This document shows, piece after piece, positions 51,684-59,109 of a stretch of DNA of 64,000 bases. Below the pieces are notes generated by a model, which saw only the letters and a list, made by a program, of their open reading frames with translations, was not told the DNA's origin and searched no databases. The first letter of the stretch is position 1; each line of letters begins with the position of its first letter. The DNA is from Deltaproteobacteria bacterium (GTDB lineage Bacteria > Myxococcota_A > UBA796 > GCA-2862545). Where the stretch lies: positions 1-64,000 of the forward strand of contig SBGP01000046.1 in the NCBI GenBank assembly GCA_006226595.1, in the 5' to 3' direction. Position numbers and translations under genes: made by a program.

Positions 51684-51810
51684 TGCATGACTTTATGCAG
51701 GATTCATGCAGGTCCTGTTCGGGCGATCGCTTCTATGATGCCGATGGAAGGCTTGTCGTTGAATTATTCATCGCTTTGTATTTGCCTGAATTTTATACGC
51801 ATAGTATGCA
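51684..51810 (+). promoter_or_regulatory. AT-rich ArgR-type operator/promoter region
   Basis: This 130-bp stretch is strikingly AT-rich in otherwise GC-rich DNA. It holds several dyads similar to ARG boxes: TGCATGACTTTATGCA (51684-51699), TGAATTATTCA (51760-51770), TGAATTTTATACGCA (51787-51801) and GCATAGTATGC (51799-51809). It immediately precedes argR and the arg operon, so arginine-dependent repression, including autorepression, is likely. No single -35/-10 pair stands out. Confidence 0.6.
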
Positions 51811-52213
51811 TGGCGTCATGTGGCGAGCTCTCCTTCCAGACCTGATCCTCTCGGGGTCCTACCGGACCCAGGGCGAACTCGTGCGTGCGCTCGGGGATCA
51901 GGGCCATGACGTGACGCAGGCCACCGTCTCTCGCGAGCTCAAGGCGCTCGGCGTGCAGAAGGTGGACGGCGTGTACGTGATGGCTCCCAACGAGGACCTG
52001 GGTGTTCCGCTGCTCTCTGCGCAGATGGCTCCCCATGCCACGCTCTGCGTGCTCAAGACCGTGCCCGCTCACGCCTCCGTCCTCGCCCAGCACGTGGACG
52101 GACTCGGTGTTTCCGGCGTGCTCGGCACCATCGCGGGTGACGACACCGTGTTCGTCGCGCTCTCCAACGCTGCCGCTGGTGAGCGGCTGATGCGAGCGCT
52201 CCGACGACGCTGA
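51806..52213 (+). CDS. argR: Arginine repressor ArgR
   Basis: A 135-residue (slightly short) arginine-responsive regulator. The N-terminal winged helix has the family signature GSYRTQGELVRAL...VTQATVSRELKALG. The C-terminal oligomerisation and arginine-binding domain ends with VLGTIAGDDTVFVAL. ATG 51806 or ATG 51818 could be used; neither has a Shine-Dalgarno, so a leaderless or short-leader transcript is possible. It is first in line of the arg genes on the same strand, 64 bp before the P-loop gene. Confidence 0.92.
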   Translation: MHGVMWRALLPDLILSGSYRTQGELVRALGDQGHDVTQATVSRELKALGVQKVDGVYVMAPNEDLGVPLLSAQMAPHATLCVLKTVPAHASVLAQHVDGLGVSGVLGTIAGDDTVFVALSNAAAGERLMRALRRR

Positions 52214-52277: not shown

Positions 52278-53351
52278 ATGAGGCTTCGTCTCGACAAGAT
52301 CGCTTCTTCTACTGCCAATGCCCGCGTCAAGGCCGACGTGGTGCTCGGCGGTGAGATCCCGGCTGTCCCCGGCACCGTGGTCGCCGTCCGCGTGCTCGAC
52401 GAGAAGCGCGTCTACAACAAGCTCGAGGACGTTCACGGGCGGATGATGACCGTGCACAAGGGTGACGTGATCGCCGGCGTGCTCGGCAATCGCCAGGCGC
52501 TGCACGGCTACTCCGGTCACGTGCCCGAGACGGTGAAGCCCGGCGACGTACTCCACCTGCTCAACCTGGGCGGGGTCATCGGCCTCGCGACCTCGGCGAA
52601 CCCGCAGGTCGGTCCGCCGGCGCGGGTCGAGGTTCTCGGCGCGGTCCAGACCTTCCCCGAGCTGGGTCGTCGTGTGGGGCGCCCCGCGTCGATCAATCCG
52701 GGCATCGTTCAGCCCGCGGACGTGCTCGGCGAGCTGCCGCCGTCGATCTGGCTGGTCGGGACCTCGATGAACTCGGGCAAGACCCGGGCGGCGTGCTCGG
52801 CGGTCCGCGAGGCGGTGCGCGCAGGGTTCACGGTCGGCGTGGCCAAGCTCACCGGCGTGGCGCTGAAGTCCGACGTCCTCGGCATGATCGACCACGGCGC
52901 GACCCACGCCGTGACGTTCGCCGATGCGGGGCTTCCGTCCACGTGCGGCGCCGAGGTCCTCGCCGTCGCCCGCGGCTGCCTCAACCATCTCGCCGCCCAG
53001 GGTGCGAACCTGCTGGTCGTGGAGCTCGGCGACGGACTGCTCGGCAACTACGGCGTGCGCGACCTGCTCGCCGCGCCCGACCTCAAGGCCTCCATCGGCG
53101 CGTTGGCGCTGTGCGCGAACGACCCGGTCGGCGCGTTCGGTGGCAAGGTGATCCTCGAAGGCATGGGGCTGAAGGCCGACGTGCTCACGGGCCCCGCGAC
53201 CGACAACAGCGCGGGCACCGAGTCCGTCGGCGGCCTCGGCATGACCGCGGTCAACGCCGTGCAGGAGTCCGAGGCCTTCGGCGCGGCGCTGCTCGGGGCC
53301 CTGGGCCTTCGGCCGGTGCCGACCCTCAAGCTCGCCCGGACCTCCGCATGA
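52278..53351 (+). CDS. P-loop protein of unknown function at the head of the arg operon
   Basis: A 357-residue cytoplasmic protein in two parts. Residues 1-140 are beta-rich with no known motif (SSTANARVKADVVLGG, VLDEKRVYNKLEDVHGRMMT). Residues ~150-357 form a P-loop domain with GTSMNSGKT near residue 160, then KLTGVALKSDVLGM, TFADAGLPST and LLVVELGDGLLGNYG. This is the layout of the BioD/MobB-like group and resembles DUF1611-type proteins. One DUF1611 member has been reported as a D-glutamate N-acetyltransferase, which is suggestive here. ATG 52278 has GGAG nine bases upstream. Its stop overlaps argC (ATGA), so it belongs to arginine synthesis by context. Exact function unknown. Confidence 0.8.
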   Translation: MRLRLDKIASSTANARVKADVVLGGEIPAVPGTVVAVRVLDEKRVYNKLEDVHGRMMTVHKGDVIAGVLGNRQALHGYSGHVPETVKPGDVLHLLNLGGVIGLATSANPQVGPPARVEVLGAVQTFPELGRRVGRPASINPGIVQPADVLGELPPSIWLVGTSMNSGKTRAACSAVREAVRAGFTVGVAKLTGVALKSDVLGMIDHGATHAVTFADAGLPSTCGAEVLAVARGCLNHLAAQGANLLVVELGDGLLGNYGVRDLLAAPDLKASIGALALCANDPVGAFGGKVILEGMGLKADVLTGPATDNSAGTESVGGLGMTAVNAVQESEAFGAALLGALGLRPVPTLKLARTSA

Positions 53352-54289
53352 ACATCGGTGTCGTCGGCGCCACCGGCTTTGTCGGTGCCGAGGTCGTGCG
53401 ACGGGTGCTCGCGCATCGGCAGCTGACGCTGACCGCGGTGACCTCGCAGTCCACCGCGGGCAAGCGCCTCGCCGACGTGCATCCCGCGCTCGAGGGCCTC
53501 ACGGACCTCGTGCTCGAGCCCTTCGACGGCGCCAAGCTCTCGAAGCTCGACGCCGTGGTGCTCGCGACCCCGCATGGCGCGGCGGCCCCCCTCGTCGCCG
53601 AGCTCGCTGGTTCTCCGCTGATCGTCGACTGCTCGCGGGATCACCGCCACGCCGAGGGCTGGACCTACGGCATGGTCGAGTACGCCTCCGAGGCCCTGGC
53701 GACCTCGTCGCGGATTGCGGTCCCCGGCTGCTTTGCGACGGCCATGGCGCTCGCGGGCGCCCCGCTCGTTGCCGCCGGCGTCATCGAGGGTCCCGCGCGC
53801 GTCGTCGCCGCGACCGGCTCGACCGGCTCCGGCGTGAAGCCCTCGGCTGGCACCCACCATCCAACTCGCTTCGCGAACCTCAAGGCGTACAAGGTGCTCT
53901 CGCACCAGCACGTCCCCGAGGTGGTCGCGTTCTGGAACACCCTCGGCGATGCGCCCAAGCTCGACTTCGTGCCGATCTCCGCGCCCATCGACCGGGGCAT
54001 TCTCGCCACGCTGCTCGTCACCGTGAAGCCCGGCACCCACGCCGAGTCGATCGTCGCCGACTTCGCGGCCAAGCACCCGCACATTCGCCTGCGCACGGGC
54101 TCTCCGGAGCTTCGCTTCGTGCGCGGCACGAGCTTCTGCGACCTCTCCGTCTCTCAGGACGAAGACACGGTCGCGGTGCTCTCCGCCATCGACAACCTGG
54201 GCAAGGGGGCGGCCGGTCAGGCCCTCCAGTGCCTCGATCTGGCACTCGGGCTAGCCCCGTCCACGCTCACGCCCCCCGCGCTTCCGTAG
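53348..54289 (+). CDS. argC: N-acyl-gamma-glutamyl-phosphate reductase
   Basis: A 313-residue NADPH-dependent reductase that converts N-acylglutamyl-5-phosphate to the semialdehyde, the third step of arginine synthesis. The Rossmann start MNIGVVGATGFVGAE, catalytic C128 in VPGCFATA and the conserved GSTGSGVKPSAGTHHP and HQHVPEV segments fit ArgC. GCFATA replaces the more common GCYPTA. ATG 53348 overlaps the preceding stop. The acyl group may be succinyl rather than acetyl, judging from the carbamoyltransferase two genes downstream. Confidence 0.93.
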   Translation: MNIGVVGATGFVGAEVVRRVLAHRQLTLTAVTSQSTAGKRLADVHPALEGLTDLVLEPFDGAKLSKLDAVVLATPHGAAAPLVAELAGSPLIVDCSRDHRHAEGWTYGMVEYASEALATSSRIAVPGCFATAMALAGAPLVAAGVIEGPARVVAATGSTGSGVKPSAGTHHPTRFANLKAYKVLSHQHVPEVVAFWNTLGDAPKLDFVPISAPIDRGILATLLVTVKPGTHAESIVADFAAKHPHIRLRTGSPELRFVRGTSFCDLSVSQDEDTVAVLSAIDNLGKGAAGQALQCLDLALGLAPSTLTPPALP

Positions 54290-54293
54290 GTAC

Positions 54294-55454
54294 ATGACCA
54301 TGTCCGTTGCACCGGCTCTGCCGCTTCCGCCGCCGCTCCTCGACAACCTGGGCGCCGCCCAGCTGCCCGTCACCCTCGTGCGTGGCCAGGGTGCGCGAGT
54401 GTTCGACGACGCGGGCCGCGCGTACTGGGACTTCTACGGCGGCCACGCCGTGACCATGCTCGGTCAGGGGCACCCGCGGTGGGTGGCGGCGATCGCTGCA
54501 CAGGCCGCGAAGCTGTCGTTCTGCACCACCATGACCCCCACGCCGGTCCGAGACCGCGCGGCGACCGCGCTGTGCGCGTTCACCGGCATGGACGTGGCTT
54601 TCTTCGTGAACTCTGGCGCCGAGGCCAACGAGGCCGCGCTGAAGATCGCGCGCAAGGCCACGGGCCGTCCGGTGGTGGTGTCGATGGTCAAGGGCTTCCA
54701 CGGCCGGACGATGGGCGCGCTCGGCGTGACCTACAAGTACCGGGATCAGCACGAGCCGGCGCATGGTGACGTGCGCTTCGTGCCCTTCGGCGACATCCAG
54801 GCGCTGCGCGACGCGATGGGCCCCGATGTGGCGGCGGTCATGCTCGAGCCCGTGCAGGGCATCGCCGGCATCGTCGAGCCGCCCCCGGGCTACCTCGCGG
54901 CGGTCGAGGCCGCGTGCCGCCAGGAAGGCGCGCTGCTCATCTGCGACGAGGTCCAGTCGGGCATCGGACGCGCAGGCTGGCCGCTGCTGTCGATGAAGGA
55001 GGGCGTGCGCCCGGACATCGCGACTGTCGGCAAGGGCCTGGGCGGCGGCTTCCCGGTGGCGGCCACGCTGATGACCGAGGCGGTGGCGGCCACGGTGCAG
55101 CCGGGCGAGCACGGCACGACCTTCGGCGGTGGGCCGCTGGCCTGTGCGGCGGTCGAGGCGACCCTCAACATCCTCCGGGACGAGGGCCTGGTCGGTCGCG
55201 CGGCGCGGCTCGGCGAGCTGCTCAAGCTCGAGCTCTCCAAGATCGAGGGCGTGAACGAGGTGCGCGGCGGCGGCGTCTGGCTCGGCCTCGTGCTCGATCG
55301 TCCCGCCAAGCCGATCCAGATGGCACTGCTCGAGCGGGGCTTCATGTGTGGCACCTCGGGCGATCCGAATGTGCTGCGCCTGTGCCCGCCGGCGGTGCTG
55401 CCCGAGTCCGCGATCGGCGCCCTCGCAGCGTCGCTGCAGGCGGTGCTCGCGTGA
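54294..55454 (+). CDS. argD: N-acylornithine aminotransferase (class III PLP)
   Basis: A 386-residue class III aminotransferase that forms N-acylornithine from the semialdehyde, using glutamate as amino donor. The PLP lysine is K247 in TVGKGLGGGFPV. Other family marks are VNSGAEANEAALKIAR, KGFHGRTMGAL, LLICDEVQSGIGR and GTTFGGGPLACAA. ATG 54294 (a second ATG is at 54300) lies four bases after the argC stop. The stop overlaps the carbamoyltransferase start (GTGA), so argC, argD and the next gene are translated together. Confidence 0.93.
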   Translation: MTMSVAPALPLPPPLLDNLGAAQLPVTLVRGQGARVFDDAGRAYWDFYGGHAVTMLGQGHPRWVAAIAAQAAKLSFCTTMTPTPVRDRAATALCAFTGMDVAFFVNSGAEANEAALKIARKATGRPVVVSMVKGFHGRTMGALGVTYKYRDQHEPAHGDVRFVPFGDIQALRDAMGPDVAAVMLEPVQGIAGIVEPPPGYLAAVEAACRQEGALLICDEVQSGIGRAGWPLLSMKEGVRPDIATVGKGLGGGFPVAATLMTEAVAATVQPGEHGTTFGGGPLACAAVEATLNILRDEGLVGRAARLGELLKLELSKIEGVNEVRGGGVWLGLVLDRPAKPIQMALLERGFMCGTSGDPNVLRLCPPAVLPESAIGALAASLQAVLA

Positions 55455-56434
55455 ACTTCCTCGACGGGACCGAGGCCGGCGCCGACGGCATCCTCACCCT
55501 CGCGAAGCGCGCGCTCGAGCTGCGTGCCGGGGCCACGCCGACCCAGCACCCTGGAAAGCGCGTGGCAGCGGTGTTCCTGAACCCGAGCCTGCGGACCCGC
55601 ACCTCCATGGAGGCGGCCTGTGGCGCCCTCGGTGCGCAGCCGCTGGTGATCACACCCGGCAAGGACGCGTGGGCTCTGGAGCTCGAAGACGTCGTCATGG
55701 ACGGGGACAAGGCGGAGCACGTGCGCGAGGCGGCCGGCGTGCTGTCTCAGTTCGCAGATGTGCTGGCCGTGCGCGCGTTCGCTGGCCTCGTCGATGCCGA
55801 GGAGGACCGCCGGGATCCGATGATCTCCGCGTTCGCGGCGCACGCTTCGGTGCCGGTCGTGAACATGGAGAGCGCACTCTGGCATCCGCTCCAGGGGCTC
55901 GCCGACACCGCGACCTGGGTGAATCACCTCGGTGACGACCTGCGCGGCAAGAAGATCGTGCTCACCTGGGCGCCACATCCGCGAGCGCTTCCCGCTGCCG
56001 TGCCGAACCAGGTGCTGCTCTCGGCGGCGCTGCAGGGCATGGACGTCACCGTCGCCCATCCCGAGGGCTTCGAGCTCGACCCGCAGATCGTGGCCCGCGC
56101 TACCTCGCTCGCCGCGGCGGGCGGGGGTGGCGTCTCGGTGCGCCACGACCAGGACTTCGGCGAGGCCGAGGTGGTGGTCGCGAAGTCATGGAGTGGCTTC
56201 TCGGGCTACGGCCGACGCGAGGCGGAAGCGGCCCATCGCGCCGAGCTCGGCCACTGGACGGTGACTCCGGACAAGCTGCCCGCGAGCGCGGGCTTCATGC
56301 ACTGCCTGCCCGTGCGTCGCGGCGTCGTCGTCGCGCCCGAGGTACTCGATGGACCGCAGTCCTGGGTACTCGAGGAGGCAGGCAATCGCCTGTGGACGGC
56401 GATGTCCCTTCTCGAAGCGATGCTCGCCGAGTAG
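55451..56434 (+). CDS. argF': N-succinylornithine (or N-acetylornithine) carbamoyltransferase
   Basis: A 327-residue carbamoyltransferase. The carbamoyl-phosphate motif is NPSLRTRTS, where classical OTCases read STRTR. The rest follows the N-acylornithine branch: TPGKDAWALE, VVMDGDKAEHVREA, NMESALWHPLQGLAD, TWAPHPRALPAAVPN, HPEGFELDP and FMHCLPVRR. From memory, TWAPHPRxLPxAVPN, HPEGxELDP and MHCLPVRR are shared with Bacteroides N-succinylornithine carbamoyltransferase. The residue reported to set acetyl versus succinyl preference (Glu in the Xanthomonas enzyme, Pro in Bacteroides) is A88 here, which favours succinyl. GTG 55451 overlaps argD. A 55-bp gap with a hairpin separates it from argB. 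Confidence 0.9.
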   Translation: MNFLDGTEAGADGILTLAKRALELRAGATPTQHPGKRVAAVFLNPSLRTRTSMEAACGALGAQPLVITPGKDAWALELEDVVMDGDKAEHVREAAGVLSQFADVLAVRAFAGLVDAEEDRRDPMISAFAAHASVPVVNMESALWHPLQGLADTATWVNHLGDDLRGKKIVLTWAPHPRALPAAVPNQVLLSAALQGMDVTVAHPEGFELDPQIVARATSLAAAGGGGVSVRHDQDFGEAEVVVAKSWSGFSGYGRREAEAAHRAELGHWTVTPDKLPASAGFMHCLPVRRGVVVAPEVLDGPQSWVLEEAGNRLWTAMSLLEAMLAE

Positions 56435-56489: not shown

Positions 56490-57404
56490 ATGACCGCCGA
56501 GCTCGGCCTCCTCGAAGCCATTCCCTACCTCCGCGCCTACGCTGGCCAGACCTTCGTGATCAAGGTCGGCGGTGAGCTGCTCGATGCCGAGCGCTCGCTG
56601 GGCGCCATCGCCACCGATGTGGCCGCGCTGCATCGCCTGGGCATCCGCGTTGTGCTCGTGCACGGCGGTGGACCTCAGCTCGATCAGGCGGCCAAGGACC
56701 TCGGGGTGAAGACCGAGCGCGTCGCGGGTCGTCGCGTGACCAGTCCAGAGCTGATCGACGCCGCGGTCATGGTGTGGCGCGGGCGGCTGAACACGCTGCT
56801 CGTCACGACCCTGCTCGCGCAGGGTGAGGCCGCGGTGGGCCTCTCCGGCGCCGACGGCCGCCTGGTCCAGGCGCAGCCCCGTCCGCCTGCCGTGGTCACC
56901 GAGGACGACGGCACCCGGGTGAAGGTGGACTACGGGCAGGTCGGCGACGTGAGCCAGGTCGACGTGACCGTCCTCGAGAGCCTGCTCGCGTCGAGTGCGA
57001 TCCCCGTGATCAGCCCGCTGGCTGTCGGGCCCGAAGCGCAGGTGCTCAACGTGAACGCCGACACGGTCGCGACGGAGCTCGCGGTCGCGCTGGGCGCTGC
57101 CAAGCTGATTCTCGTCACCCGCGCCCCCGGCATCCTCGCCAACCCCGAGGAGCCGGCCTCGGTGCTCCCGTTCACCGACCTGCAGGGCCTGGAACAGCTG
57201 GAGCGCGACGGCGTGCTGTCCGGCGGCATGCGTCCGAAGGTCGCGGCCATCCGTCGGGCACTCCGCGGCGGTGTGCCGAGAGTGCACGTGGTCGACGGGC
57301 GCCAACCCCACACGATCCTCCGTGAAGTGTTCACCACGGACGGCGCGGGCACGCTCGTCGTTGCCGATGGCGACGAGACCGCCGCCGAAGTGGTGGTGGG
57401 GTAG
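56490..57404 (+). CDS. argB: N-acylglutamate kinase
   Basis: A 304-residue amino-acid kinase (second step of the pathway) that phosphorylates N-acetyl- or N-succinylglutamate. Family marks: FVIKVGGELL at the nucleotide site, VVLVHGGGPQLD, AVGLSGADG, QVLNVNADTVATELA, LILVTRAPGIL and SGGMRPKVAA. VTRAPG replaces the usual LTDVPG. ATG 56490 has only a weak GAGA upstream. It is last in the arg cluster, followed 16 bp later by the histidine kinase gene. Confidence 0.93.
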   Translation: MTAELGLLEAIPYLRAYAGQTFVIKVGGELLDAERSLGAIATDVAALHRLGIRVVLVHGGGPQLDQAAKDLGVKTERVAGRRVTSPELIDAAVMVWRGRLNTLLVTTLLAQGEAAVGLSGADGRLVQAQPRPPAVVTEDDGTRVKVDYGQVGDVSQVDVTVLESLLASSAIPVISPLAVGPEAQVLNVNADTVATELAVALGAAKLILVTRAPGILANPEEPASVLPFTDLQGLEQLERDGVLSGGMRPKVAAIRRALRGGVPRVHVVDGRQPHTILREVFTTDGAGTLVVADGDETAAEVVVG

Positions 57405-57420
57405 TGGTAACCTTGGGGTC

Positions 57421-59109
57421 GTGGGCAAAGACTTCCAGCTGATCGAACCCCTGCACCGCCTGCTGCGTCGCCAAGCACTGCGCGCGGGCGTGGACCTCGA
57501 CGACCTGGACCCCGCGGTCGCAGCCCTCCTGCTCGATGTGAGCAGGTCCTATGAGCAATCCGAGGCGGACCGTGCGCTGGCCGATCGGGTCCATCACCTG
57601 GCACAGCAGGAGCTCGAGCTCGTCCACGAGCGCAGCAGTGAGCGGTTCACGCGGCTCGAGAGCGTGTTGTCCACGCTTGCCGAAGGCATCGCGCACATCG
57701 ATGCCAAGGGTCGCATCACGTTCGCGAACCGGGCCTTTCGGGAGTTTGCGTGTCGCGGTGACGTCGAGGGGCAGCGCCTGCTCGAGGTCCTCTCCTTTCT
57801 CGATGCCGACGGCCGCCGAGTCCACGAACTGCCCGACCAGCTGCATGGCTTCATCGAGCCGCCGATGGGCATGCCGGTCCGGGTCATGGTGAGTCGCACC
57901 GAGGTCGAGGGCGGCTCGGTTGTGGCGATTCTCGACGTGCAGGAGGAGTGGTCCGCGTGGCGCGCTGCGGAGCGCGCGGCCCTGGAGAGCGAGCGCGCGC
58001 AAGCCGCGGATGCCGCCAAGTCGAGCTTCCTCGCGAGCCTCAGCCACGAGTTCCGGACGCCGCTGAACGGTGTCGTGGTACTCGCCCAGCTCTTCGCGGA
58101 GGACACGACGCTCTCCGAGGAGCAGCGGGAGCGCGCCGAGGTGCTGCGGGCGAGTGGCGAGGCCCTGCTCGCGCTTGTCGGCGACGTGCTCGATCTCTCG
58201 CGCATCGAGAGTGGTCGGGTCGAGGTCGAGGCCGTCCCCACGCTGGTGGCGGACTTCGTGCGCGAGGTCTCCGTCGTGTTCGGGCTTCACGCGGATTCAA
58301 AGGAGCTCGCGTTCGTCGTCGAGGTGGATCCCTCCGTTCCGCCGGCGTTGATGCTCGATCGAGACCACGTGAGGCAGGTGATGATCAACCTGCTGGGCAA
58401 CGCGCTGAAGTTCACGAGTGAGGGAACGGTCTCGCTCCGGGCGCGGTGGGACGTCGGCTCGCTGGTGCTCGAGGTGCGAGACACGGGGCCCGGGATTCCC
58501 GAGGACCGACTCGAGGCCATCCTCGAGCCCTTCACCCAGGTCAGCCGAGCTGTGACCCGGCAGCACGGCGGCACGGGGCTAGGGCTCGCGATCAGCCTGG
58601 GGCTCGTGCAGGCGATGGGCGGCAACCTCAGCATCGCGTCCACGGTGGGGGAGGGGTCGACGTTCACCGTCGTGCTTCCCGCCGAGGCGTGTGACGCACC
58701 GGACATCAATGCGACCACGCTGGTCCCGGGGACCGGGATGCGCGTGCTGCTCGTCGACGACAACCCCGTGAACCGCCTCGTCGCCAAGGCCATGCTCAAG
58801 CCCGCGGGGCTCGAGATCGTCGAGGCCGAGGATGCGGAGGCGGCGCTCGCGCTCGCGCTCGACGACTTCGATCTGGTGCTTCTCGATGTGCACCTGCCCG
58901 GCATGTCCGGACTCGAAGCGGCGCAGATCATGAAGGAACGCGGGGTGACGGCGCACATCGTCGCGGTGACCGCGAACGCGACGACCGAGATGCGAGACCT
59001 CTGCGTGAGTGCGGGTATGGACGGCTTTCTCACCAAGCCGCTCCGGCGTGAGCAGGTGACCACCATCCTCGCCGAGGCCGCGGCGGCGCGCGAGCTCTTC
59101 GCACCGTGA
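57421..59109 (+). CDS. Hybrid sensor histidine kinase with PAS-like and receiver domains
   Basis: A 562-residue cytoplasmic hybrid kinase. An N-terminal helical region (1-75) is followed by a PAS-like domain (~78-190, LSTLAEGIAHIDAKGRITF). The phosphoacceptor H209 lies in SHEFRTPLN. The ATPase domain has N box NLLGNALKFT, G1 DTGPGIPED, F box and G2 GGTGLGLAIS. The C-terminal receiver has LVDDN and phospho-site D489 (LLDVHLPGMSG), with a conserved K in TKPL. No membrane segment is seen, so it senses an internal cue. GTG 57421 has a weak Shine-Dalgarno. It may be read through from argB, but a functional link is unproven. Confidence 0.92.
   Translation: MGKDFQLIEPLHRLLRRQALRAGVDLDDLDPAVAALLLDVSRSYEQSEADRALADRVHHLAQQELELVHERSSERFTRLESVLSTLAEGIAHIDAKGRITFANRAFREFACRGDVEGQRLLEVLSFLDADGRRVHELPDQLHGFIEPPMGMPVRVMVSRTEVEGGSVVAILDVQEEWSAWRAAERAALESERAQAADAAKSSFLASLSHEFRTPLNGVVVLAQLFAEDTTLSEEQRERAEVLRASGEALLALVGDVLDLSRIESGRVEVEAVPTLVADFVREVSVVFGLHADSKELAFVVEVDPSVPPALMLDRDHVRQVMINLLGNALKFTSEGTVSLRARWDVGSLVLEVRDTGPGIPEDRLEAILEPFTQVSRAVTRQHGGTGLGLAISLGLVQAMGGNLSIASTVGEGSTFTVVLPAEACDAPDINATTLVPGTGMRVLLVDDNPVNRLVAKAMLKPAGLEIVEAEDAEAALALALDDFDLVLLDVHLPGMSGLEAAQIMKERGVTAHIVAVTANATTEMRDLCVSAGMDGFLTKPLRREQVTTILAEAAAARELFAP

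Follow-up and report, generated by a model that had tools for sequence, protein, structure and literature searches.

A P-loop protein as candidate first enzyme of a predicted succinyl-type arginine pathway outside the Bacteroidetes

A route to arginine that runs over succinylated intermediates is known from Bacteroidetes (PMC7311316), and the arginine cluster analysed here raises the question whether it uses the same tagged intermediates and, if so, which of its genes would provide the first of them. The cluster lies in a stretch of 64,000 nucleotides (the window), where its genes follow one another in the order argR - P-loop gene - argC - argD - argF' - argB:

51760-51773, + strand: possible ArgR-binding site upstream of argR, with three mismatches to an E. 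coli-type ARG box; it includes the near-palindrome TGAATTATTCA at 51760-51770
51806-52213, + strand: argR, arginine repressor (from family models)
52278-53351, + strand: gene of an unnamed P-loop protein of 357 aa, proposed N-acyl(succinyl)-L-glutamate synthase (from cluster position, exclusivity, AlphaFold2 model and fold matches)
53348-54289, + strand: argC, acylglutamyl-phosphate reductase, its start overlapping the stop of the P-loop gene by 4 bases
54294-55454, + strand: argD, acylornithine transaminase, its stop overlapping the transcarbamylase start by 4 bases
55451-56434, + strand: argF', a knotted transcarbamylase of the SOTCase type, predicted N-succinyl-L-ornithine carbamoyltransferase (from the open reading frame, family models, residue triplet and tree)
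56490-57404, + strand: argB, acylglutamate kinase of 304 aa without NAT domain (from family models)

Because of the two 4-base overlaps the genes look like one operon. The ARG-box-like site is weak, as such a site occurred in 13 of 100 shuffles of the window, and a promoter and terminator scan of the window gave nothing useful. Directly after argB and on the same strand, a hybrid histidine kinase (57418-59109; PAS, HisKA, HATPase and receiver domains) is encoded, which is possibly cotranscribed with the arginine genes.

The transcarbamylase gene is an open frame with a GTG start that encodes 327 aa, and the sequence-only reading had proposed an N-succinylornithine-type enzyme, based on motifs of the Bacteroides enzyme. 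All quoted motifs, including HPEGFELDP, MDGDKAEH and FMHCLPVRR, were found in the translation; their presence thus stands, but not their strict specificity for Bacteroides, as they are common across the knotted AOTCase/SOTCase family outside true AOTCases. It is a residue triplet, not these motifs, that tells AOTCase and SOTCase apart. When PDB entries were ranked by phmmer, Xanthomonas AOTCase and its mutants came first, followed by the SOTCase of B. fragilis and then by OTCases. An identity as OTCase was rejected from the OTCase models, all of them well short of their cut-offs (147/306 and 141/281 bits), and from the separate OTCase outgroup (support 100, starred) in the tree described below, and model scores and tree also ruled out a catabolic transcarbamylase. 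The knotted transcarbamylase gene is single in the genome searched (7.23 Mb, 97% complete, 117 contigs), with the second match at E 4e-4.

With 347.8 bits the protein passed the NCBIfam AOTCase equivalog (cut-off 288), and the name of this model, N-acetylornithine carbamoyltransferase, would fit an ordinary acetyl-type enzyme and pathway in which the residue at position 92 had drifted neutrally to Ala. We consider this highly improbable, since the model does not separate both specificities, and the residues and the tree point the other way. As the equivalog (NF003384) accepts a SOTCase-type protein, it probably mislabels succinyl enzymes. According to Shi et al. (2015, PMC4581275), E92/N185/K302 of AOTCase are replaced in SOTCase by A/S/P/V/Q, by P and by V/I/E, respectively. 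The corresponding codons in the window are:

55712-55714, + strand: A88, aligned with the Xanthomonas AOTCase specificity residue E92
55991-55993, + strand: P181, aligned with AOTCase N185, Pro in SOTCase (rule from PMC4581275)
56327-56329, + strand: V293, aligned with AOTCase K302, Val, Ile or Glu in SOTCase (rule from PMC4581275)

The window protein is therefore of the succinyl type at three of three positions (A/P/V) and lacks the E/N/K signature of AOTCase. The earlier claim that A88 is the counterpart of the Glu mutated in the Xanthomonas enzyme was borne out by the phmmer alignment, in which the best PDB match, 3l02, has Ala at this position. The further claim that Ala is among the residues giving succinyl preference agrees with Price et al. 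(2020, PMC7311316), where this preference follows from S, P, A or V in first place; a single change at E92 is reported to switch the substrate preference (PMC7311316, PMC4581275), which argues against drift. In B. fragilis SOTCase the succinyl group is held by H176, R178 and R278 (PMC4581275), with H176, R178 and R289 as counterparts in the window protein. The Trp of the 80's loop and the second-substrate Lys and Glu are likewise present (W74, K245 and E140), so that the substrate-anchoring residues W74, E140, H176, K245 and R289 are conserved. All 28 relatives of the same order have a residue other than Glu first, P second and V or I third.

In a tree of 86 rows, true AOTCases (Xanthomonas, one gammaproteobacterium and eight loci of the window's phylum that keep E/N/K) formed one clade with 99% SH-aLRT support (starred). 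The window protein fell outside this clade and outside the OTCases, together with members of its family and of one further family of the phylum, which answers the question whether it would fall among OTCases or acetyl-type enzymes. The branch joining all non-AOTCases has a support of 80% only and Bacteroidota are not the nearest neighbours; the residues therefore carry more weight than the tree in the call on specificity. Triplet and tree position together support the N-succinylornithine-type reading, and the enzyme is, as judged from its sequence, very probably specific for the succinyl substrate.

That such an enzyme occurs outside Bacteroidetes was correctly stated in the sequence-only reading, but it is not unique to this organism, as the same signature was found in Acidobacteriota, Planctomycetota, Rhodothermota, Chloroflexota, Pseudomonadota and much of the window's phylum, which is probably Myxococcota. 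In a scan of named genomes, Bacteroidota included, 76 of 80 loci showed the SOTCase pattern at the second and third positions (P, then V/I/E), with Thr at the first position in some Acidobacteriota and a few Chitinophaga. Among loci of the phylum with a knotted enzyme and no P-loop gene, 17 of 20 were E/N/K and hence true AOTCases. Some clusters with the P-loop gene have the variants AGV, APK or Thr in first place, and succinyl may therefore not be the acyl group in all of them. That the window enzyme itself handles an acyl group which is neither acetyl nor succinyl and fits a pocket without E92 would agree with this variation (A, V, S, P, T, Q or I at position 92 among related clusters, and sometimes K at the third position). 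We regard it as improbable, because the triplet of the window, APV, is the commonest among the named loci and the succinyl-holding residues of B. fragilis have the counterparts given above. Two short argG-transcarbamylase-argH clusters without argB, argC and argD (L222 in G148 and L233 in G308) have the unusual triplets PGV and QLV.

The first step has to be assigned as well, and it is in the P-loop gene, missed in the sequence-only reading, that more of the cluster's novelty lies. Its product belongs to no family in Pfam or NCBIfam, a search of PDB sequences with its family profile gave no significant match, and within the partial coverage of our literature search we found no publication already assigning its function. 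It carries the following motif:

52758-52784, + strand: Walker A-type P-loop GTSMNSGKT, residues 161-169 of the P-loop protein (from the alignment of relatives)

Conservation in the family is strong: in an alignment of 62 members the M-x-x-G-K-T of this loop is invariant (M164, G167, K168, T169), as are K190, G193, D199, F214, E249, G251, D252, Y258 and D282 and, in the N-terminal part, G70, R72, G80 and P83. Relatives were found in 33 of 58 related genomes, and argC adjoins the gene in almost all fetched loci. A first guess from the sequence, DUF1611 itself, was rejected, as PF07755 (gathering score 25 bits) did not match the window protein; a remote relation remains. Matches to PF07755 below the cut-off were obtained for 18 of 22 relatives (best E 1.1e-4; named members 14.7-19.5 bits), hhalign gave E 8e-4 for the link to DUF1611/DgcN at a weak probability of 25%, and distant homologues carry the annotation DUF1611, so that the sequence comparisons weakly favour a link to this family.

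A second, more distant subfamily (E 1e-29 to 1e-47) occurs mostly in genomes which are also ArgJ-positive, including G196, where the homologue (L295) adjoins genes for an M20 peptidase and a glutamate-cysteine-ligase-2; from these neighbours the subfamily probably has a different function. Another distant relative lies in a phosphonate-type biosynthetic cluster on a Priestia megaterium plasmid (NZ_CP085446.1, 5893-6954; L294), together with an OTCase homologue, two ATP-grasp proteins, an M20 peptidase within two genes and a PEP-mutase-family protein. The M20 peptidase near both distant homologues would fit a logic of acylation followed by deacylation.

The distribution of the P-loop gene was followed in 373 genomes of the phylum, each at least 90% complete, of which 47 had a strong match and 326 had none. 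A knotted transcarbamylase was present in 43 of the 47 versus 44 of the 326 (Fisher p 3e-27) and ArgJ in 3 versus 233 (p 3e-18), both p values ignoring shared ancestry. The same contrast was seen within the families f10, f33 and f56, where genomes with the P-loop cluster stand beside genomes with AOTCase or ArgJ. Altogether the P-loop gene stood beside arg genes in 40 arginine clusters from many phyla, between argG and argC in 26 of them, and the order of such clusters is argG-PLOOP-argC-argD-transcarbamylase-argB-argE-argH. In 16 clusters with argB, argC, argE, argG, argH and transcarbamylase and no known synthase (argD being recognised by our queries in 12), it would fill the sole step left unassigned. 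Bacteroidota show the order GNAT-argG-argC-argD-transcarbamylase-argB-argE-argH (44 loci with the GNAT, 41 with all steps). This GNAT and the P-loop gene never shared a locus (40 P-loop and 44 GNAT loci). AOTCase clusters have neither of the two; a C-terminal acetylglutamate-synthase NAT domain was fused to ArgB in all six of their ArgBs that were scanned and in the gammaproteobacterial one, and was absent from the ArgB of the window and of two scanned clusters with the P-loop gene. As each kind of cluster thus has one candidate for the first step, the candidate here is the P-loop protein. Three genomes (G037, G303 and G318) have the P-loop gene but neither SOTCase nor ArgJ, and its role is therefore probably upstream of carbamoylation. 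Near the arg cluster of G037 (L299), which has the P-loop gene and an ordinary OTCase, a gene of the succinylglutamate-desuccinylase/aspartoacylase type was observed.

Known synthases were searched for in the genome of the window. ArgJ was absent, with ten positive controls working, and a synthesis of the first intermediate by ArgJ was rejected. A search with PF04768 found no match, nor did any positive control match. The transcarbamylase may still be a SOTCase whose first intermediate is made by an ordinary GNAT encoded elsewhere, the P-loop protein having another role in the pathway such as regulation, assembly or the supply of glutamate or carbamoyl phosphate. Among the 37 GNAT matches of the genome there could be an unrecognised synthase, the succinyl clusters of Bacteroidota use a GNAT (PMC7311316), and SOTCase-type clusters with neither P-loop gene nor GNAT nearby exist (e.g. 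L092, L120 and G087). We nevertheless think this rather unlikely: the Flavobacterium-type GNAT was found neither in the genome nor in 56 of 58 relatives, the other two giving weak partial matches, and a CG3035 synthase model searched against 30 GNATs matched five (best E 2.9e-10), one with a score of 32 bits against a cut-off of 280, leaving no convincing synthase among the thirty. Moreover, for an accessory protein one would not expect that P-loop gene, GNAT, ArgJ and NAT-fused ArgB exclude one another. Overall, the P-loop protein as an N-acyl- (probably N-succinyl-) glutamate synthase is the assignment we favour with some confidence.

AlphaFold2, supplied with 18 sequences (window and named loci), gave a model of the P-loop protein with a mean pLDDT of 93.1. 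VIA-align placed the DUF1611 protein 2g0t on top (Z 17.0, rmsd 2.9, 178 aligned), followed by CTP synthases and dethiobiotin synthetases at Z about 16 and by another DUF1611 protein, 2obn (Z 15.9); DgcN (7xrj) was aligned with Z 14.8, rmsd 3.3 and 183 residues. These values are near ties, and the fold alone therefore does not choose an acyltransferase over a ligase. An ATP-using ligase is compatible with the modelled fold, and the P-loop protein might form the acylglutamate from glutamate, a carboxylate and ATP instead of by CoA-dependent transfer. The intact Walker A motif with its invariant G167, K168 and T169, the invariant K190, D199, E249, D252 and D282 and the tie of CTP synthase and dethiobiotin synthetase with DUF1611 speak for such a ligase, which we still regard as unlikely, as the DUF1611 proteins match too, and from earlier in the model (residues 56-99), and DgcN was deposited as an N-acetyltransferase (title of 7xrj). 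For the N-terminal domain, modelled alone (pLDDT 91), Foldseek gave no match below E 0.38 and VIA none above Z 3.2, which is no proof of a new fold.

Taken as a CoA-dependent transferase, the P-loop protein (52278-53351) would move a succinyl group, most likely from succinyl-CoA, onto L-glutamate. The N-succinylglutamate would then be phosphorylated by ArgB, reduced by ArgC and transaminated by ArgD to N-succinylornithine, which the SOTCase-type transcarbamylase (55451-56434) would carbamoylate to N-succinylcitrulline. Succinate would be removed by a deacylase of the M20 family, whose gene is a neighbour in many related clusters and here presumably lies outside the window, and ArgG and ArgH would complete the synthesis. 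Gene identities, the residue triplet, the position in the tree and the co-occurrence in clusters and genomes are observed; the acyl group, the activity of each enzyme and above all the first step are what we infer, and ArgB, ArgC and ArgD would act on succinyl substrates purely by pathway logic, as had been suggested before. We find it reasonably probable that the cluster makes arginine via N-succinylated intermediates with the P-loop protein doing the first step.

Compared with known systems, the window shares with B. fragilis SOTCase (1js1, 2fg6/2fg7) a knotted transcarbamylase in an arginine cluster with the same specificity positions and substrate anchors, whereas the overall score to this enzyme is lower than that to Xanthomonas AOTCase and the clade of the window is separate from Bacteroidota. 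Xanthomonas AOTCase (3kzc series) has the best overall PDB score and shares family and catalytic motifs, but has E/N/K in place of A/P/V, and the AOTCase clusters of the window's own phylum differ in gene order and in the NAT domain fused to ArgB. The BT3761-type GNAT of Bacteroides thetaiotaomicron, a probable N-succinylglutamate synthase (PMC7311316), occupies the one remaining step of succinyl pathway clusters, as proposed for the P-loop protein, yet it belongs to the unrelated GNAT family and was never found in the same cluster. ArgA, ArgJ and NAT-fused ArgB would share with the P-loop protein the reaction type, N-acylation of glutamate, but have no detectable homology to it. The DUF1611/DgcN proteins (7xrj; 2g0t, 2obn) resemble the modelled P-loop domain at Z 14.8-17, as closely as CTP synthase and dethiobiotin synthetase do, and the profile match is weak and below the Pfam cut-off. 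From the title of its PDB entry, we take DgcN (7xrj) to be a D-glutamate N-acetyltransferase, which thus acylates glutamate. A genuine DUF1611 (DgcN-like) gene (E 9e-60) is present in the genome of the window, separate from the arginine cluster (G000:C103, locus L300 (L256)); it adjoins a gene for a PLP-dependent enzyme, lies near one of the mandelate-racemase/dipeptide-epimerase type and is rare among relatives, in an apparently dgcN-dgcA-like locus.

The occurrence of the same signature in several phyla suggests an alternative pathway of broad distribution, which has largely been mis-annotated as acetyl-type, since both specificities fall under one standard family model. We lean slightly towards the view that the P-loop proteins are a new class of N-acylglutamate synthase of wide occurrence, which most likely makes N-succinyl-L-glutamate and has no relation to ArgA, ArgJ and GNAT enzymes. 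Such a synthase would combine a P-loop fold like that of dethiobiotin synthetase and DUF1611 with an N-terminal domain matching no solved structure, and would provide the entry to the succinyl arginine pathway in Myxococcota, Acidobacteriota, Planctomycetota, Rhodothermota and others. Of the genes considered, the P-loop gene is the strongest candidate for a hitherto unrecognised route to the first tagged intermediate, and if its product is an acylglutamate synthase, the gap at the first step would be filled in genomes without ArgA and ArgJ. If true, this would be another independent solution to glutamate acylation, and an example from primary metabolism of N-acyl transfer by a P-loop fold.
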